From assembly GCF_030732985.1 (NCBI RefSeq), contig NZ_JASHJX010000019.1:1-64000 (forward strand): a stretch of DNA of 64,000 nucleotides, given 5' to 3'. Numbering within the stretch: position 1 is the stretch's first letter; every line of letters starts with the position of its first letter. The notes under the pieces are model-generated. The model saw only the letters and a list, made by a program, of their open reading frames with translations. It was not told the DNA's origin and searched no databases. Of this stretch, positions 5,542 through 46,061 are shown in pieces. Origin of the DNA: Nioella sp. MMSF_3534. GTDB taxonomy: Bacteria > Pseudomonadota > Alphaproteobacteria > Rhodobacterales > Rhodobacteraceae. The position numbers and the translations under genes are program-made.

Positions 5542-7167
5542 ATGAAATTTCATGTATTTGCGATTAGCGTTCTGACGGCGGGCATGGCCCATGCCGACGA
5601 CATTCCCCTGCGCGCCGACGTGACCCACGCCACGATCTATGGCGGCGCGGCCGAGGTGACGCGGCACGCGACGGTGACCGTCCCCGCAGGCGCGCATCGG
5701 CTGCTGGTGCCGGTCCCGTCCTATATGCAGGATGCCGGTGTCGTCAGCGCCGCGCTGTCGGACGGCACCCCGCTTGGCCCGGTGCGTCTGGAATTGGCCC
5801 CCGGTTTCGAGGACGGCCAGTTCGACACGCCTGCACAGGCCGCCCTGCGCGCCCGGATCGAGGCGCTGGAGGCCGAGATCGAAGAGGCAGAGGATCAGCT
5901 TGCCCATATCGAAGCGGGTCTTGGCACGATTGCCCTGCAACGTCGCTATCTGGAAAGCTACGCCTCCAGCGCCTCGGGCGAGGTGACGGCCCCGGATGAG
6001 ATCGGCGAGGTGATGAGCGAGCTTGGCCAGCAGATGGAGGGACTGGTCACGGAGCTGTTTGAAGGCGAACGCCAGCAGGATGAACAGCTTATGGTGATTG
6101 CCGATCTTCAGTTTGAGTTGAGTGAAGCAGAGGCAGAGCTGCGCGCGCTTTACCCGCTTGGTGCAGACAGCATTGCGCTTGCCATTCCGGTTGCGGTTTC
6201 GGCCGATGCAGAACTGCCTGTTGTCCTCACCCATACGTTAAGCGGCTTCGGCTGGAACATGAGCTACACCGCACGCCTGTCGACGGTCGAAGGCAGCTTG
6301 TCGCTAGACCGTACCGCGCGGTTGGAAAGCTACGTGCCCGACAGATGGGAAGATGTTGCCCTGACCCTGTCAGGCGAAGAATGGGGGCAGGAGCTGGATA
6401 TGACCGGTGTCTGGCCCTCGCCCGCCCGGATCGAAGAGGAACGACCGCCAGAAGTGTTTGACGGACGGCTGGCCGGGGCGGCGTATGTGGAACCGGTGTT
6501 GGAACCCGTGGTCATCATGGAAGACACGGCCTCGTTCGAAAGCTTCGGCCTGTCTTTCTCCGCCGCGGTCGCCGATCCGCAAACGATCAGCCAAGGCGCG
6601 GAAACGCTGGTGCCGTTTGATGCGCTGACCCTTGATCCCGAGATCACCATCGAGGCTAACCCACGCCACGACGACACCGCTTTCCTGATCGCGCGGGCCG
6701 AGAACACAACCGGCCAGCCGCTGATCCCCGGTGACATGGCCGTTTACCGCGATGCGGCGTTTCTGTCGGACCTGTATCTGGACACCGTCCCGCCCGGCGG
6801 CGAGGTGGAACTGCCCTTCGGGTCGGTCGATCACCTGCAACTGTTCTGGCGGGATCTGTCGCGGAATGAGGGCGACGAGGGGTTCTTCAACCGGTCCAAC
6901 GTGCAGCGGCAGGTGGTGGAATTTGGCATCACCAATGTCTCGGACCAGCCCGAAGACGTGCGCATCCTCTACGCCGTGCCATACACGGAACAGGAGGATC
7001 TGGAACTGGACCTGACCCTGTCGATTGCGCCAAGCGTCGAAAACCTCGACGGTCGGCGCGGTATCCATGCCTGGGATCTGACCGTCGGTGCGGGCGAAAC
7101 CCGCACCATCCGGATGGAGGCTGATATGTCCTGGCCCGAGGGCTACGACCTTTACTGGCGTCCGTAA
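5542..7167 (+). CDS. MuiA-family (DUF4139) envelope protein
   Basis: Exported protein of the 'mucoidy inhibitor A' family; molecular function unknown. The 541-residue product starts with a signal peptide (about residues 1-18, ending GMAHA) and has the typical N-terminal DUF4140-like region (HATIYGGAAEVTRHATV). A Glu/Ala-rich coiled coil follows at about 85-190, then a C-terminal beta-rich DUF4139 region ending in YDLYWRP. The start is chosen for the signal peptide and the GGAGGG site. It stands alone between asd and the convergent bicarbonate operon. The name reflects family similarity only and no mucoid phenotype is implied here. Confidence 0.85.
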   Translation: MKFHVFAISVLTAGMAHADDIPLRADVTHATIYGGAAEVTRHATVTVPAGAHRLLVPVPSYMQDAGVVSAALSDGTPLGPVRLELAPGFEDGQFDTPAQAALRARIEALEAEIEEAEDQLAHIEAGLGTIALQRRYLESYASSASGEVTAPDEIGEVMSELGQQMEGLVTELFEGERQQDEQLMVIADLQFELSEAEAELRALYPLGADSIALAIPVAVSADAELPVVLTHTLSGFGWNMSYTARLSTVEGSLSLDRTARLESYVPDRWEDVALTLSGEEWGQELDMTGVWPSPARIEEERPPEVFDGRLAGAAYVEPVLEPVVIMEDTASFESFGLSFSAAVADPQTISQGAETLVPFDALTLDPEITIEANPRHDDTAFLIARAENTTGQPLIPGDMAVYRDAAFLSDLYLDTVPPGGEVELPFGSVDHLQLFWRDLSRNEGDEGFFNRSNVQRQVVEFGITNVSDQPEDVRILYAVPYTEQEDLELDLTLSIAPSVENLDGRRGIHAWDLTVGAGETRTIRMEADMSWPEGYDLYWRP

Positions 7168-7173
7168 GGGAAG

Positions 7174-7200
7174 GGGCCGGGCGTCAGAACCGCTCGGCCC
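7174..7200. terminator. Hairpin between convergent genes
   Basis: GGGCCGGGCG pairs with CGCTCGGCCC across a 7-base loop, with one G-T position. It sits seven bases after the MuiA-like stop and overlaps the last codons of the SbtB-like gene. No clear U-run is present, so termination would be weak or factor-assisted. Confidence 0.45.
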
Positions 7201-7495
7201 GCAGCACCTCGCAATCGGTGACGCTGACCACGCCGATATGACGCTCCACCACGGCAAAGGCCGCTTCCAGCAGGGCATCCAGCCTTTCGGGTTTGATGAT
7301 ACAGACAACGGCCAGCATCCCGCCCGCCCGGCTGACTTGGCCCGCGCGGCTCCACTCCCCCGACCGGCCCGACCCACCCTTGACGGGCAGGATGGTGTAC
7401 CCGGTCACATCGGCCTTTCGCAGCGCCTCGGTCAGGCGGCGTTCCATCATCGATTCGATGATGATTTCGACACGTTTTGCCTTGTGGGTCTGCAT
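7184..7495 (-). CDS. PII-like signalling protein (SbtB-type)
   Basis: Small ligand-binding trimeric PII-superfamily protein expected to control the bicarbonate transporter encoded immediately upstream. The 103 residues begin with a PII-like beta strand (KRVEIIIESM), have a glycine-rich T-loop region at about 36-50 (LPVKGGSGRSGEW), and end with a strand containing HIGVVSVTD. The uridylylated tyrosine segment of canonical GlnB is absent, which fits SbtB-type proteins that bind adenyl nucleotides. It starts four bases after the sbtA stop, so the genes are cotranscribed. Ligand choice cannot be read from the sequence. Confidence 0.8.
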   Translation of the reverse strand: MQTHKAKRVEIIIESMMERRLTEALRKADVTGYTILPVKGGSGRSGEWSRAGQVSRAGGMLAVVCIIKPERLDALLEAAFAVVERHIGVVSVTDCEVLRAERF

Positions 7496-7498
7496 CGG

Positions 7499-8485
7499 TC
7501 AGCCTCCGGTCACGGTGCGGGCAATGGCCAGATAGATCGGGATGCCCAGGGTCAGGTTAAAGGGGAAGGTGACGCCGAGCGACAGCGTCAGGTAGATGGA
7601 CGGGTTCGCCTCTGGCAGGGCCACGCGCATGGCTGCAGGGACCGCGATGTAAGAGGCCGAGGCCGACAGCACCATGAACAGCGCCACGCCCCCCGCCGAC
7701 AGGCCGATCAGAATCCCGGCGGCAAGGCCAAACAGACTGCCAACCAGCGGCATGACGATCCCGAAGGCCAGCAGGCCGGGCCGCAGAACCCCCGCCGCGC
7801 TGCGCAGACCGCGCCCCGCAACCAGCCCCATATCCAGCAGGAAGAGGCAGAGCACACCCTGGAAGGGCGCCACGATGAAGCTTTCGATCCGGGCCAGCCC
7901 GTCCGCCCCTGTGATCGCGCCGATCAGGAACGACCCGATCAGCAGCACGATGGAGCCATTGAGCAGGATTTCCCGCAGCAGTTCCCCATCCATCTCTTCG
8001 CTGTTCGTTTTGTCCCCGTAGCGCGCGATCAGCCACAGGGCGGCAAGGATCGCCGGGGCCTCCATCGCGGCGGCGACGGCGACCATGAAGCCTTCGCCCG
8101 CCAGCCCCGCAGAATCGAGCACCGACGTGCCCGCCACGAAGGTCACGATAGAGATCGACCCGTAATGCGCGGCGACGGCGGCGGCGTTGGTGACATCCAG
8201 CCCCGACATGACGCGCAGCAAGGCGAAGGCGACCAACGGCAGAACGAAGGACAACACCACGCCCGCCACCAAAGACAGGATCAGCGCCGTGTCCACCCCG
8301 TGCGACGCCACGCTGGCCCCGCCCTTGAAGCCGATGGCAAACAGCAGATAGAGCGACATGGCCTTGGCCACGGCCTCTGGCACCGTCAGGTCGGATTTCG
8401 CATAGGCGGCAGCGAATCCAAGCACGAAAAAGAGGATGATGGGCGACAGCAGGTTTTCTGCCGCCAGCGAAAGTATCTGGTCCAT
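7499..8485 (-). CDS. sbtA: Sodium-dependent bicarbonate transporter, SbtA family
   Basis: Inner-membrane permease of the SbtA family, which in cyanobacteria brings in bicarbonate with sodium. The 328-residue protein is almost entirely hydrophobic with about ten predicted membrane segments. It has the family-like HYGSISIVTFVAG motif near the end of the first half and a matching SASASYIAVPAAMR motif in the second half. That inverted repeat of Ser-rich segments forms the substrate site in SbtA. It lies between a beta carbonic anhydrase (upstream) and an SbtB-like protein (downstream), all leftward. Cation and anion specificity are inferred from family and context. Confidence 0.85.
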   Translation of the reverse strand: MDQILSLAAENLLSPIILFFVLGFAAAYAKSDLTVPEAVAKAMSLYLLFAIGFKGGASVASHGVDTALILSLVAGVVLSFVLPLVAFALLRVMSGLDVTNAAAVAAHYGSISIVTFVAGTSVLDSAGLAGEGFMVAVAAAMEAPAILAALWLIARYGDKTNSEEMDGELLREILLNGSIVLLIGSFLIGAITGADGLARIESFIVAPFQGVLCLFLLDMGLVAGRGLRSAAGVLRPGLLAFGIVMPLVGSLFGLAAGILIGLSAGGVALFMVLSASASYIAVPAAMRVALPEANPSIYLTLSLGVTFPFNLTLGIPIYLAIARTVTGG

Positions 8486-8541
8486 GTCGTCCCCACATTC
8501 CGACGGGCTGTTCAGAGGCCGCAGAACGGTTCCGAAATTCC

Positions 8542-9192
8542 CTACACTTTTACGAAGGAATTAGTGCCGGGATCGTACATTTCCAAGGCCCCGGACGCGA
8601 TTTCATTCCACAAACCATGCAGGCTGAGCCGCCCGTCCTCGACGGCCTCCGACACGAAGGGGAAGGTCATCAGGTTGGCAAGGGACACCAGCACCGAGCG
8701 CTGTTCCAGCACCTTCTGCCGTTCCTGTTCATCGGTGATGTCAGCGGTCTCTTCACACGCCGGACGCAGGATATCCATCCAGCGGCCCACGAAACTGGTG
8801 GGCTGCTCAAGCTCGGGCGCGTTGCCCGACACCATCTGGATGCAGCCATTCACGCCACCGCAATTGGAATGGCCCAGAACCATGATGTTGGCGACCTTCA
8901 GCGCCGTAACCGCATATTCCACCGCTGCCGATGTGCCGTGGTGATCGCCGTCGGGCGCATAGGGCGGCACCAGATTGGCGATGTTGCGGTGAATGAAGAA
9001 CTCGCCCGATTCAGCCCCGAAGATCGAGGTGACATGCACCCGGCTGTCGCAGCAGGAAATCACCATGGCGCGGGGGCGCTGGCCTTCCTCCGCAAGGCGG
9101 CGAAACCAGGCCTGGTTTTCTGAAAATTCGGTTGCTTTCCAGCTGTGGTATCGCCGTGTCAGGTATGTCGGCAGGGGGGAAACGTATTTCAT
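8542..9192 (-). CDS. Beta-class carbonic anhydrase
   Basis: Interconverts CO2 and bicarbonate in the cytoplasm. The 216-residue protein shows the zinc ligands and Asp-Arg dyad of the beta class: SCCDSR (C47, D49, R51), and GHSNCGG (H108, C111). Length is normal and the active site looks intact. The ATG is preceded by a GAGGAC ribosome site. It is the first gene of a leftward run with the SbtA-type transporter (56 bases downstream) and the SbtB-like regulator, so it probably balances CO2 with imported bicarbonate. Confidence 0.95.
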   Translation of the reverse strand: MKYVSPLPTYLTRRYHSWKATEFSENQAWFRRLAEEGQRPRAMVISCCDSRVHVTSIFGAESGEFFIHRNIANLVPPYAPDGDHHGTSAAVEYAVTALKVANIMVLGHSNCGGVNGCIQMVSGNAPELEQPTSFVGRWMDILRPACEETADITDEQERQKVLEQRSVLVSLANLMTFPFVSEAVEDGRLSLHGLWNEIASGALEMYDPGTNSFVKV

Positions 9193-9333
9193 ATAGCGTC
9201 CTCTGTCGTCGCGTCGACCCTGATAGGCTGCATTCCCCGAAAGTTCGAGGTTTTTTTGGTCGCGGGCCTAACGGTTTCTTCAGCAAGCCGGGGCACAGTC
9301 CCCCTATCCGTGGGGGCGGAAGTGGAGTGAGTG

Positions 9334-43200: not shown

Positions 43201-44051
43201 CGGCGGCGCTGGCCGCGGGGATTACCCTCACCGCTTTTGCGCAGGAACCGGGCGTGCTCGGGGCCTTTGCGATCCGGTCCGATCATGAACTGGTCGGTGG
43301 GCTGTCGGCGGTGGAAATCACCGATGGTGGTGCCGGACTGGTGGCGCTGTCGGATCGCGGGGCGCTGATCCGGGGGCAGATCACCCGCGACGGGGCCGGA
43401 CGCGTGGTGGCGCTGGCCCTGGCCGAGCCGGAGCTGCTGAATGCAAGGGACGGCTATCGCGGGGGCCGGGCGGCGCGGGACAGCGAGGGGCTGGCGATTG
43501 CGGAAGATGGCCGGATGTTCCTGTCGTTTGAGGGTGATCACCGCGTCGTGCTGCATCACGCCCATGGCGACACGATCCTGCCGGCAGCAGAGGGGTTCGC
43601 CGTGTTGCAGCCCAATGCCTCGCTGGAGGCGCTGGCGGTGGATGCGGACGGGACGCTCTACACTCTGCCGGAACGGTCGGGCGATCTGGATCGGGATTTC
43701 CCGTTGTTTCGCTATGCCAACGGGGCGTGGGACGAGAGCTGGACCATCCCGCGCGAGGGGCGGTTTCTGCCGGTTGGGGCGGATTTCGATGACCGGGGCC
43801 GGTTTTTTCTGCTGGAGCGGGATTTCAGCTTGCTCTTTGGATTTGCCAATCGCATCCGCCGCTTCGAGGTGACGGCGGAGGGCATGATCGGGGGCGATGT
43901 GGTCTGGCAATCGCCCCATGGCGGGTTTTCGAACCTCGAAGGGCTGAGCGTCTGGCGTGACGGGCAGGGCAGGCTGGTGGCCAGCATGGTATCGGACGAC
44001 AATTTCAGCCCGATCCTGCCGACGGAGCTTGTGGAAATCATCCTGGAGTGA
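43170..44051 (+). CDS. Exported phytase-like beta-propeller esterase
   Basis: Exported protein of 293 residues: signal peptide (about 1-24, ending TAFAQE) then a phytase-like propeller pattern (GGLSAVEITDGGAGLVALSD, ARDSEGLAIAEDGRMFLSFE, GGFSNLEGLSVWRDGQGRL), matching the 'esterase-like activity of phytase' family. Substrate unknown. It starts within the mepA 3' end in another frame, so translation is coupled, and its own end overlaps the convergent LysR gene by 14 bases. Confidence 0.8.
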   Translation: MQPRSGQLALTAALAAGITLTAFAQEPGVLGAFAIRSDHELVGGLSAVEITDGGAGLVALSDRGALIRGQITRDGAGRVVALALAEPELLNARDGYRGGRAARDSEGLAIAEDGRMFLSFEGDHRVVLHHAHGDTILPAAEGFAVLQPNASLEALAVDADGTLYTLPERSGDLDRDFPLFRYANGAWDESWTIPREGRFLPVGADFDDRGRFFLLERDFSLLFGFANRIRRFEVTAEGMIGGDVVWQSPHGGFSNLEGLSVWRDGQGRLVASMVSDDNFSPILPTELVEIILE

Positions 44052-44913
44052 CGCCCTTGGCCAAAAGCTTCGCCAGCGCCGGGTGTGGGAACTGGCGCGG
44101 GACGGTGACGGCGTAGAAGGGCTCGGATATGCCGAGGTCGAAGGGGGCGGTGGCGATGCGGCCAGAGGCGATTTCATCGGCCAGCACCACGGCGGGCGCG
44201 ACAGCCAGCCCCACGCCCTCGCGCGCCAGCAGGCGGACCATGGCCATGTCATCCACCGTGGCGGCGATGCGTGGGCTGACCTGAAGCCGGGCCAGAAGGT
44301 TATCCATTCCGGCGCGGATGGTGTTTTCCGTGGGCAGGATCAGCGGTTCGTTTTCCAGCATGGCGCGCAGGCTTGGGTGGCGCAGCCGCTCGGGCGACCC
44401 GTGCAGCTGCACGGGCTGCTCCGCAAGGCGCTGCGCGGCGAAATCAACGCCCTGGTCGCTGGCCGGAACCTCGGTCGTCAGCACCACGTCGAGCGCCAGC
44501 GCCGCGAGATCAGCCAGCAGCGTGCGCGTGTTGCCGGACCTGAGCGCCACGTCGCAATTCTCGGCCAGCGCAGGGCGCAGGAACTGAAGCTGAAAGTTGC
44601 GCGACAGGGTGGACAGCGCCCCGACCCGCAGGGGCGGGTTGCTGTCGCTGCTGCGGTTCAATGTGGCGACAAGGTCTTCGCCCGCGGTGAAGATCCTTTC
44701 GGCGTGGTCCAGCGCGATACGCCCCGCCTCTGTCAGCACGAGCCGCCGTCCGACCCGGTCAAACAGCTTGTGGCCAAGCCGGTCCTCCAGCTGGCGGATC
44801 TGGATCGACATGGCGGACTGCGACAGGTTCAGCACCTCGGCGGCGCGGCCAAGATGGCCCTGCCGGGCGACTTCGCGGAAGTAGCGGAGGTGGTGATAGT
44901 TGAGCGGACCCAT
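44038..44913 (-). CDS. LysR-family regulator, NhaR-like
   Basis: LysR regulator of 291 residues with an N-terminal winged helix (LNYHHLRYFREVARQGHLGR, AAEVLNLSQSAMSIQIRQLE), then an effector-binding half. The LNYHHL start resembles the NhaR subgroup that responds to sodium. It is divergent from the second SbtA-type transporter with a 95-base intergenic region, so it probably activates that gene, which would fit a sodium-coupled permease. The exact signal is inferred. Confidence 0.9.
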   Translation of the reverse strand: MGPLNYHHLRYFREVARQGHLGRAAEVLNLSQSAMSIQIRQLEDRLGHKLFDRVGRRLVLTEAGRIALDHAERIFTAGEDLVATLNRSSDSNPPLRVGALSTLSRNFQLQFLRPALAENCDVALRSGNTRTLLADLAALALDVVLTTEVPASDQGVDFAAQRLAEQPVQLHGSPERLRHPSLRAMLENEPLILPTENTIRAGMDNLLARLQVSPRIAATVDDMAMVRLLAREGVGLAVAPAVVLADEIASGRIATAPFDLGISEPFYAVTVPRQFPHPALAKLLAKGVTPG

Positions 44914-45008: not shown

Positions 45009-46061
45009 ATGGACCTGATCGCAACCATCGCCGCAACGATCCTGGATCAGTTGCGCAACCCCACGCTCGCCTTCCTGCTGGGTGGGCTTCTGATCGCCGC
45101 GCTTGGCAGCCGCCTGACGGTGCCCGACGCGGTCTACAAGTTCATTGTTCTGGTGCTGCTGTTGAAGGTCGGTCTCAGCGCCGGGATTTCGGTGCGCGAG
45201 GCGGATTTCTGGGCGCTGATCGTGCCCGGCGTGCTGGCCATGCTGATCGGCATCGCCATCGTGCTGATCGGCAGCCGGACGCTGGCCCGCCTGAACGGCG
45301 TGTCTAAGGTGGACGGGCTGGCGACGGCGGGGCTCTTTGGGGCGGTCTCTGCCTCCACCCTCGCCGCCGGGATGGTGATGCTGGATGAGCGGCAGATCCC
45401 CTATGAGGGCTTCATCGGCGCGCTTTACCCCTTCATGGACATCGCCGCGCTGGTCACGGCCATCGTGCTGGCGCGGGTCAGCGTGGCGCGCAAGGCGGTG
45501 GCCACCGGCGGCGGGACTGTCGCGCTTGGCGGGGGCGGCGCGCAGATCGACGGGCTGGAAGGCGGCATGTTGCGGGACATCCTGACCGATACATTCCGCA
45601 GCCCCGCGATTTCCGCGCTGTTGCTGGGGCTGATGATCGGGCTGCTGGCCAATGCCGACTCGGTCTTCCATGGCTTCTACGAGCCGCTCTTCCGGGGCTT
45701 TCTTTCGATCCTGATGCTGGTCATGGGGATGGAGGCCTGGGCCCGGCTGGCGGAGCTGAAGCGGGTGGCGCATGCCTATATCCTCTACGGGATCGCGGGG
45801 CCGCTGCTGCACGGGGCTATCGGGTTCGGCGCAGGGATGATCGCGCATGAACTGACGGGCTTCTCTGCCGGGGGCGTGGTGCTGCTGGCGGTCATGGCCT
45901 CGTCAAGCTCCGACATTTCCGGCCCGCCGACCCTGCGCGGTGCGCTGCCAGAGGCGAACCCCTCGGCCTATGTGGGCACGTCGACGGGGCTCGGCACGCC
46001 GGTCGCCATTCTCAGCATCCCGGCATGGATCGCGCTGGCCGAACTTGTGATAAGCTGGTGA
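45009..46061 (+). CDS. Second SbtA-family bicarbonate-type transporter
   Basis: Multi-pass permease of 350 residues of the SbtA family, paralogous to the gene at 7499. Both have the same repeat layout, here with FGAVSASTLAAGMVML in the first half and LAVMASSSSDISGPPTLRGA in the second. A Gly-rich cytoplasmic loop (about 160-180) is longer than in the first copy. No carbonic anhydrase or SbtB gene is adjacent; instead it is divergent from an NhaR-like LysR gene. Transport of bicarbonate is inferred from the family. Confidence 0.85.
   Translation: MDLIATIAATILDQLRNPTLAFLLGGLLIAALGSRLTVPDAVYKFIVLVLLLKVGLSAGISVREADFWALIVPGVLAMLIGIAIVLIGSRTLARLNGVSKVDGLATAGLFGAVSASTLAAGMVMLDERQIPYEGFIGALYPFMDIAALVTAIVLARVSVARKAVATGGGTVALGGGGAQIDGLEGGMLRDILTDTFRSPAISALLLGLMIGLLANADSVFHGFYEPLFRGFLSILMLVMGMEAWARLAELKRVAHAYILYGIAGPLLHGAIGFGAGMIAHELTGFSAGGVVLLAVMASSSSDISGPPTLRGALPEANPSAYVGTSTGLGTPVAILSIPAWIALAELVISW

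Follow-up and report, generated by a model that had tools for sequence, protein, structure and literature searches.

The window analysed here, a 64,000-nucleotide stretch from Nioella sp. MMSF_3534, carries three minus-strand genes encoding, in order, a β-carbonic anhydrase (CA; 8542..9192, 216 aa), a permease of the Sbt_1 superfamily belonging to a clade distinct from SbtA (7499..8485, 328 aa) and a PII-like regulator (7184..7495, 103 aa). The leftward CA-permease-PII operon proposed in a preliminary description was recovered at its coordinates with decisive Pfam matches, all far above the cut-off (Pro_CA, E=1.1e-45; Sbt_1, E=1.6e-115; P-II, E=4.1e-15). The CA and permease genes are separated by 56 nt and the permease and PII genes by 3 nt, which makes co-transcription of the three likely, and a GGAGG ribosome site lies just 5′ of the permease stop codon. 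The 8542..9192 product belongs to the β-CAs, combining Pro_CA family membership with intact zinc and active-site motifs, CxDSR from C47 and HxxC from H108; its nearest solved structure by sequence is the β-CA 1ekj (E=1.8e-32). Downstream of the operon and convergent with it, a MuiA/DUF4139 family protein is encoded at 5542-7167, and similar-looking proteins also occur 3′ of the PII gene in loci L063, L083 and L087.

A promoter-like element, CTCGAANTT, is present in the intergenic region preceding the CA gene (9193..9330, minus strand), and most relatives conserve it at a distance of about 60 nt from the CA start. An element of the form CTCGAAWT occupies this position in 39 of 64 relatives, which are not independent of one another, and the window copy, CTCGAACTT at 9241-9249, is a putative promoter. 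A second candidate, GCCCCCACGG, was rejected as a regulatory site of the operon: its core GCCCCCA occurs almost only where a divergent neighbour gene is present (34/35), with no enrichment in the window.

The permease fits both the Sbt_1 family and the SbtA fold. In its AF2 model (pLDDT 79) the helices corresponding to TM4 and TM9 are broken; the model finds its best PDB match by Foldseek in SbtA bound to HCO3− (7egl, E=8.8e-13) and gives a TM-score of about 0.76-0.82 to solved SbtA. The label SbtA (Na+-dependent HCO3− transporter, TC 2.A.83), however, did not survive analysis. The protein is 24% identical to Synechocystis SbtA (E=5e-19) and falls outside the SbtA clade, with 100% SH-aLRT on both sides, in a 69-sequence tree obtained by a quick search and containing some long internal branches. 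Together with the motif, these results rule out orthology with SbtA and define a separate SbtA-like clade, whose signature (AHYGSxSxxTF, MExPAI, SASASYIA, TFPFN) recurs with small variations in Alphaproteobacteria, Arthrobacter and Anoxybacillus. Docking has proposed Ser114, Tyr140, Ser324 and Ser327 as the HCO3−-binding residues of SbtA, and alanine at Tyr140 or Ser327 lowers its transport (PMC8352866). The serines matching 114 and 324 are kept across the clade, as S112 and S278 in the window permease, whereas Tyr140 is replaced by alanine and Ser327 by Ala281. The loss of these two of the four docked residues weakens the case for HCO3− uptake. Elsewhere in the pocket, Asp325 is replaced by Tyr279, and Asn310 is conserved.

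The true SbtA orthologue is another gene of the same window, overlooked in the preliminary description and located 37 kb from the operon (45009..46061, plus strand; E=2.8e-101 to Slr1512). Its product groups with cyanobacterial SbtA in the same tree (100% SH-aLRT) and keeps all four proposed HCO3− residues, but no SbtB gene adjoins it. It is flanked by a divergent LysR-type, NhaR-like regulator (44038..44913, minus strand), a pairing conserved in most of the Rhodobacterales relatives read. In two Rhodobacterales loci (L031:2494-3426 and L083:4007-4912), a relative of this regulator, 69-71% identical, takes the place of CA beside the operon-type permease, which ties the two transporters together.

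The small protein, previously labelled SbtB, does possess a PII-like ferredoxin fold and does lie beside an Sbt permease, but it resembles CPII more closely than SbtB. Pfam and fold comparison place it inside the PII superfamily, so that the structural result that would have spoken against the original proposal, a position outside that family, was not obtained. Thiomonas CPII provided its closest solved structures by phmmer, profile search and fold alike; its profile E-value was 4.8e-11, and the best SbtB reached 1.6e-5. The best match of its AF2 model was CPII 5d4o (E=6.7e-8), an entry whose description names ADP, AMP and bicarbonate as bound ligands; CPII reportedly binds ADP more strongly with bicarbonate. 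The T-loop reads GGSGRSGEWS where SbtB has GxGSRNVRS, and its residues G41, G43, G46 and W48 are invariant in 46 homologues. This corresponds to the GxGxxGx[W/Y] T-loop of Thiomonas intermedia CPII, one residue longer than that of SbtB, although overall identity to CPII is about 30%. The C-terminus, RAERF, lacks the CGPxGC R-loop, a feature which is not decisive as it is present in only some SbtBs and is also missing from that of Cyanobium. In a PII tree of about 100 columns with weak inner support, the operon protein stands clearly apart from GlnB/GlnK and the DAB-linked CPII proteins form their own clade, which may or may not group with the operon protein. Sequence, fold and T-loop thus do not support SbtB in the strict sense.

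The best named permease matches, at 99% identity, come from Nioella sediminis and N. ostreopsis, in agreement with the Rhodobacterales-like host suggested earlier. Neither a RuBisCO large subunit nor a PEP carboxylase is encoded anywhere in the 4.15 Mb assembly, which is rated 100% complete; the absence of RuBisCO previously noted for the window therefore extends to the genome. The search for carboxylases proposed at that stage returned both HCO3−- and CO2-using enzymes: four biotin-carboxylase proteins, one of them a clear pyruvate carboxylase, and a clear match to crotonyl-CoA carboxylase/reductase (624 bits). The genome also encodes two β-CAs beyond that of the operon, three in total, and two ordinary PII proteins.

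Across 149 genomes of the order, the operon-type permease was found in 58, the SbtA orthologue in 31 and both in 28; CA lies directly upstream on the same strand in at least 41 of the 58 permease carriers. All 30 loci first read contained the PII gene. Of 80 named loci, 79 have the PII gene 3′ of the permease gene, and at least 62 have CA on its 5′ side. When all layouts are counted, at least 91 of 145 loci have a β-CA gene next to the permease; the 145 loci mostly belong to one family and are not independent. CA is downstream in Roseibium, Thalassospira and locus L145, divergent in L144, and found in other arrangements also in L198 and L203. The CAs in these layouts are only 28-46% identical to the window CA, suggesting that CA has become associated with the permease repeatedly. 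Outside the family, most loci keep the permease-PII pair and usually lack CA, and the pair without adjacent CA is what most other alphaproteobacterial families display. Permease-PII genes 72-76% identical to those of the window, without CA, were also seen in six metagenome-assembled genomes labelled Spiribacter or Ectothiorhodospiraceae (L056, L064, L078, L090, L097, L099), reflecting either gene transfer or mis-binning. A conjugative Pseudomonas plasmid (L125:3983-5334) encodes an unannotated SbtA-like permease with a PII-like protein 3′ of it, in the vicinity of a Tn3 transposase.

The regulator was also followed from the CPII side. Thiomonas CPII, used as the query against 399 genomes, identified 20 loci, of which 19 adjoin the SbtA-like permease of the operon clade and one adjoins DabA. 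Plasmid-borne CPII homologues of Nitrobacter, Mycolicibacterium and Nocardia lie 3′ of DAB genes; in Mycolicibacterium the next gene is annotated as carbonic anhydrase, and in Nitrobacter RuBisCO lies beyond the DAB-CPII genes. On the Nitrobacter hamburgensis plasmid (L206:3423-16228), a DabB-hypothetical-DabA-CPII cassette is present twice in tandem, upstream of a LysR gene and form I RuBisCO. The recurrence of β-CA beside the permease, and of CPII-type proteins beside either an Sbt-like permease (19/20) or the DAB CO2 pump (1/20 and the three plasmids), argues for a role in dissolved inorganic carbon.

Full-length RuBisCO, defined by a score over 400 bits, was detected in 1 of the 58 permease carriers and 11 of the 91 non-carriers (p=0.029, kinship being ignored), so that the role of the permease is not tied to RuBisCO. 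The sole genome with both, G065, has a permease of the Cereibacter subclade without adjacent PII or CA. A Cereibacter sphaeroides plasmid (L119:3971-7713) carries a PII-less SbtA-like permease, flanked on one side by LysR-cbbLS and on the other by a regulator whose annotation reads hydrogen peroxide-inducible genes activator. The permease was not enriched in genomes lacking β-CA (3 of 11 carry it, p=0.53), and the idea that it compensates for a lost CA was rejected.

The preliminary description had regarded the operon as a known cyanobacterial arrangement. This holds for the transporter-PII pair: cyanobacterial SbtA-SbtB (Slr1512-Slr1513) shares the superfamily, the elevator fold and the order of transporter and PII-like protein. 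It does not hold for CA, as the two plasmid loci of cyanobacteria that we inspected have no annotated CA gene within 4 kb of sbtA-sbtB. The operon further departs from SbtA-SbtB by its permease (24% identity, a fully supported separate clade, replacement of two among the four proposed HCO3− residues), by a PII protein without the SRNVRS T-loop motif or the CGPxGC R-loop, and by the CA gene within it. The DAB/DAC-CPII operons of Nitrobacter, Mycolicibacterium and Nocardia resemble it in that a regulator of this type accompanies an uptake system for inorganic carbon, but there transport relies on DabA-DabB, unrelated to Sbt. Among SbtA-like proteins, Shewanella SO_3758 has the SASYIA motif and the Asn of the operon permease, judging from residues quoted in PMC12093963 rather than from a direct alignment. 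A Nostoc SbtA-like protein of 24% identity, placed here by its description in PMC11890772, co-occurs in some strains with true SbtA, as in Nioella. The available parts of these two articles report a CA operon for neither protein. Since Sbt homologues are already known in heterotrophs, from SAR11 (PMC10030771) and from a survey (PMC10880623), we regard the operon as a variant of a known system rather than a new kind. The literature searched, which was confined to an open-access collection, contained no report of a CA-SbtA-like-CPII operon.

Marine Rhodobacterales are abundant heterotrophs, and we propose that the module provides such an organism with a PII-gated supply of inorganic carbon. The SbtA-like elevator permease would bring in HCO3− together with Na+, and cytoplasmic CA would keep HCO3− and CO2 in equilibrium. 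Adenylates and possibly HCO3− would be sensed by the CPII-like trimer, whose T-loop would plug the permease whenever inorganic carbon or the energy state removes the need for uptake. The products would feed pyruvate and acyl-CoA carboxylases, which use HCO3−, and crotonyl-CoA carboxylase/reductase, which uses CO2, a supply that would matter most in alkaline, CO2-poor seawater. The model builds on gene content, conserved linkage, fold, the absence of RuBisCO and the presence of carboxylases. That the permease imports HCO3− with Na+ is probable, and we infer its substrate, direction, Na+ coupling and gating alike; bicarbonate supply to carboxylases is plausible from gene association. Several observations count against the model, in addition to the two lost residues. 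A cytosolic CA beside an HCO3− importer can let the imported carbon leak out as CO2. Nioella already possesses a true SbtA as well as two further CAs, and most other alphaproteobacterial families lack the adjacent CA. In Microcystis, an SbtA-like protein with a comparable identity (24%) seemingly does not replace SbtA (PMC11890772).

The rebuilt pocket (Asp325 to Tyr279, Tyr140 and Ser327 to Ala, conserved Asn310) would also suit the transport of some other small anion, for instance formate or another short carboxylate, the link to CA then arising from CO2 made or consumed in the metabolism of that anion. SO_3758 has the same S-A-S-Y-I-A motif with the Asn 34 residues later, formate tolerance results from its A269T substitution, and the wild-type protein protects Zymomonas (PMC12093963). 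We nevertheless consider this unlikely: CPII-type regulators adjoin inorganic-carbon systems or the operon-type permease in all loci examined, β-CA is repeatedly associated with the permease, and a non-systematic look at the neighbourhoods inspected revealed no recurrent formate gene beside it. The Shewanella authors favour an efflux model for SO_3758 (same article), and a heterotroph makes excess CO2; with CA as the first gene of the operon, the module might hydrate respiratory CO2 and export HCO3−, or buffer the cytoplasm. SbtA, however, is an inward-driven Na+ symporter (PMC8352866), outward symport would oppose the usual Na+ gradient, and a PII protein plugging the permease from the cytoplasm is suited mainly to the control of uptake or backflow, so that a function in pH or CO2 disposal appears quite improbable.

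A genuine carbon-concentrating mechanism serving RuBisCO could be suspected from Cereibacter, where a permease of the same clade adjoins form I RuBisCO (cbbLS). In the Nioella genome it is rejected by the absence of RuBisCO from an assembly rated 100% complete, and RuBisCO is depleted among permease carriers, the only one that has it belonging to the Cereibacter subclade without PII or CA; such a function has a negligible chance of being the right one. PII-gated Na+/HCO3− uptake, coupled to CA and feeding heterotrophic carboxylases, is the best reading, and we hold it to be rather likely.

Taken more broadly, the widespread SbtA-like clade, with its rebuilt site, CPII-type regulators and repeated recruitment of β-CA, may represent a second inorganic-carbon uptake system, serving heterotrophic carboxylases rather than RuBisCO and having its bicarbonate-sensing regulator type in common with the unrelated DAB pump, a proposal to which we give somewhat less than an even chance. 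If the operon indeed imports bicarbonate, one bicarbonate-linked class of PII proteins would serve two unrelated uptake machines, and the real cargo of many proteins annotated as sodium-dependent bicarbonate transporters without the SbtA site would become apparent. The operon would then offer a specific and genetically testable route for inorganic-carbon uptake by heterotrophs in CO2-poor seawater.
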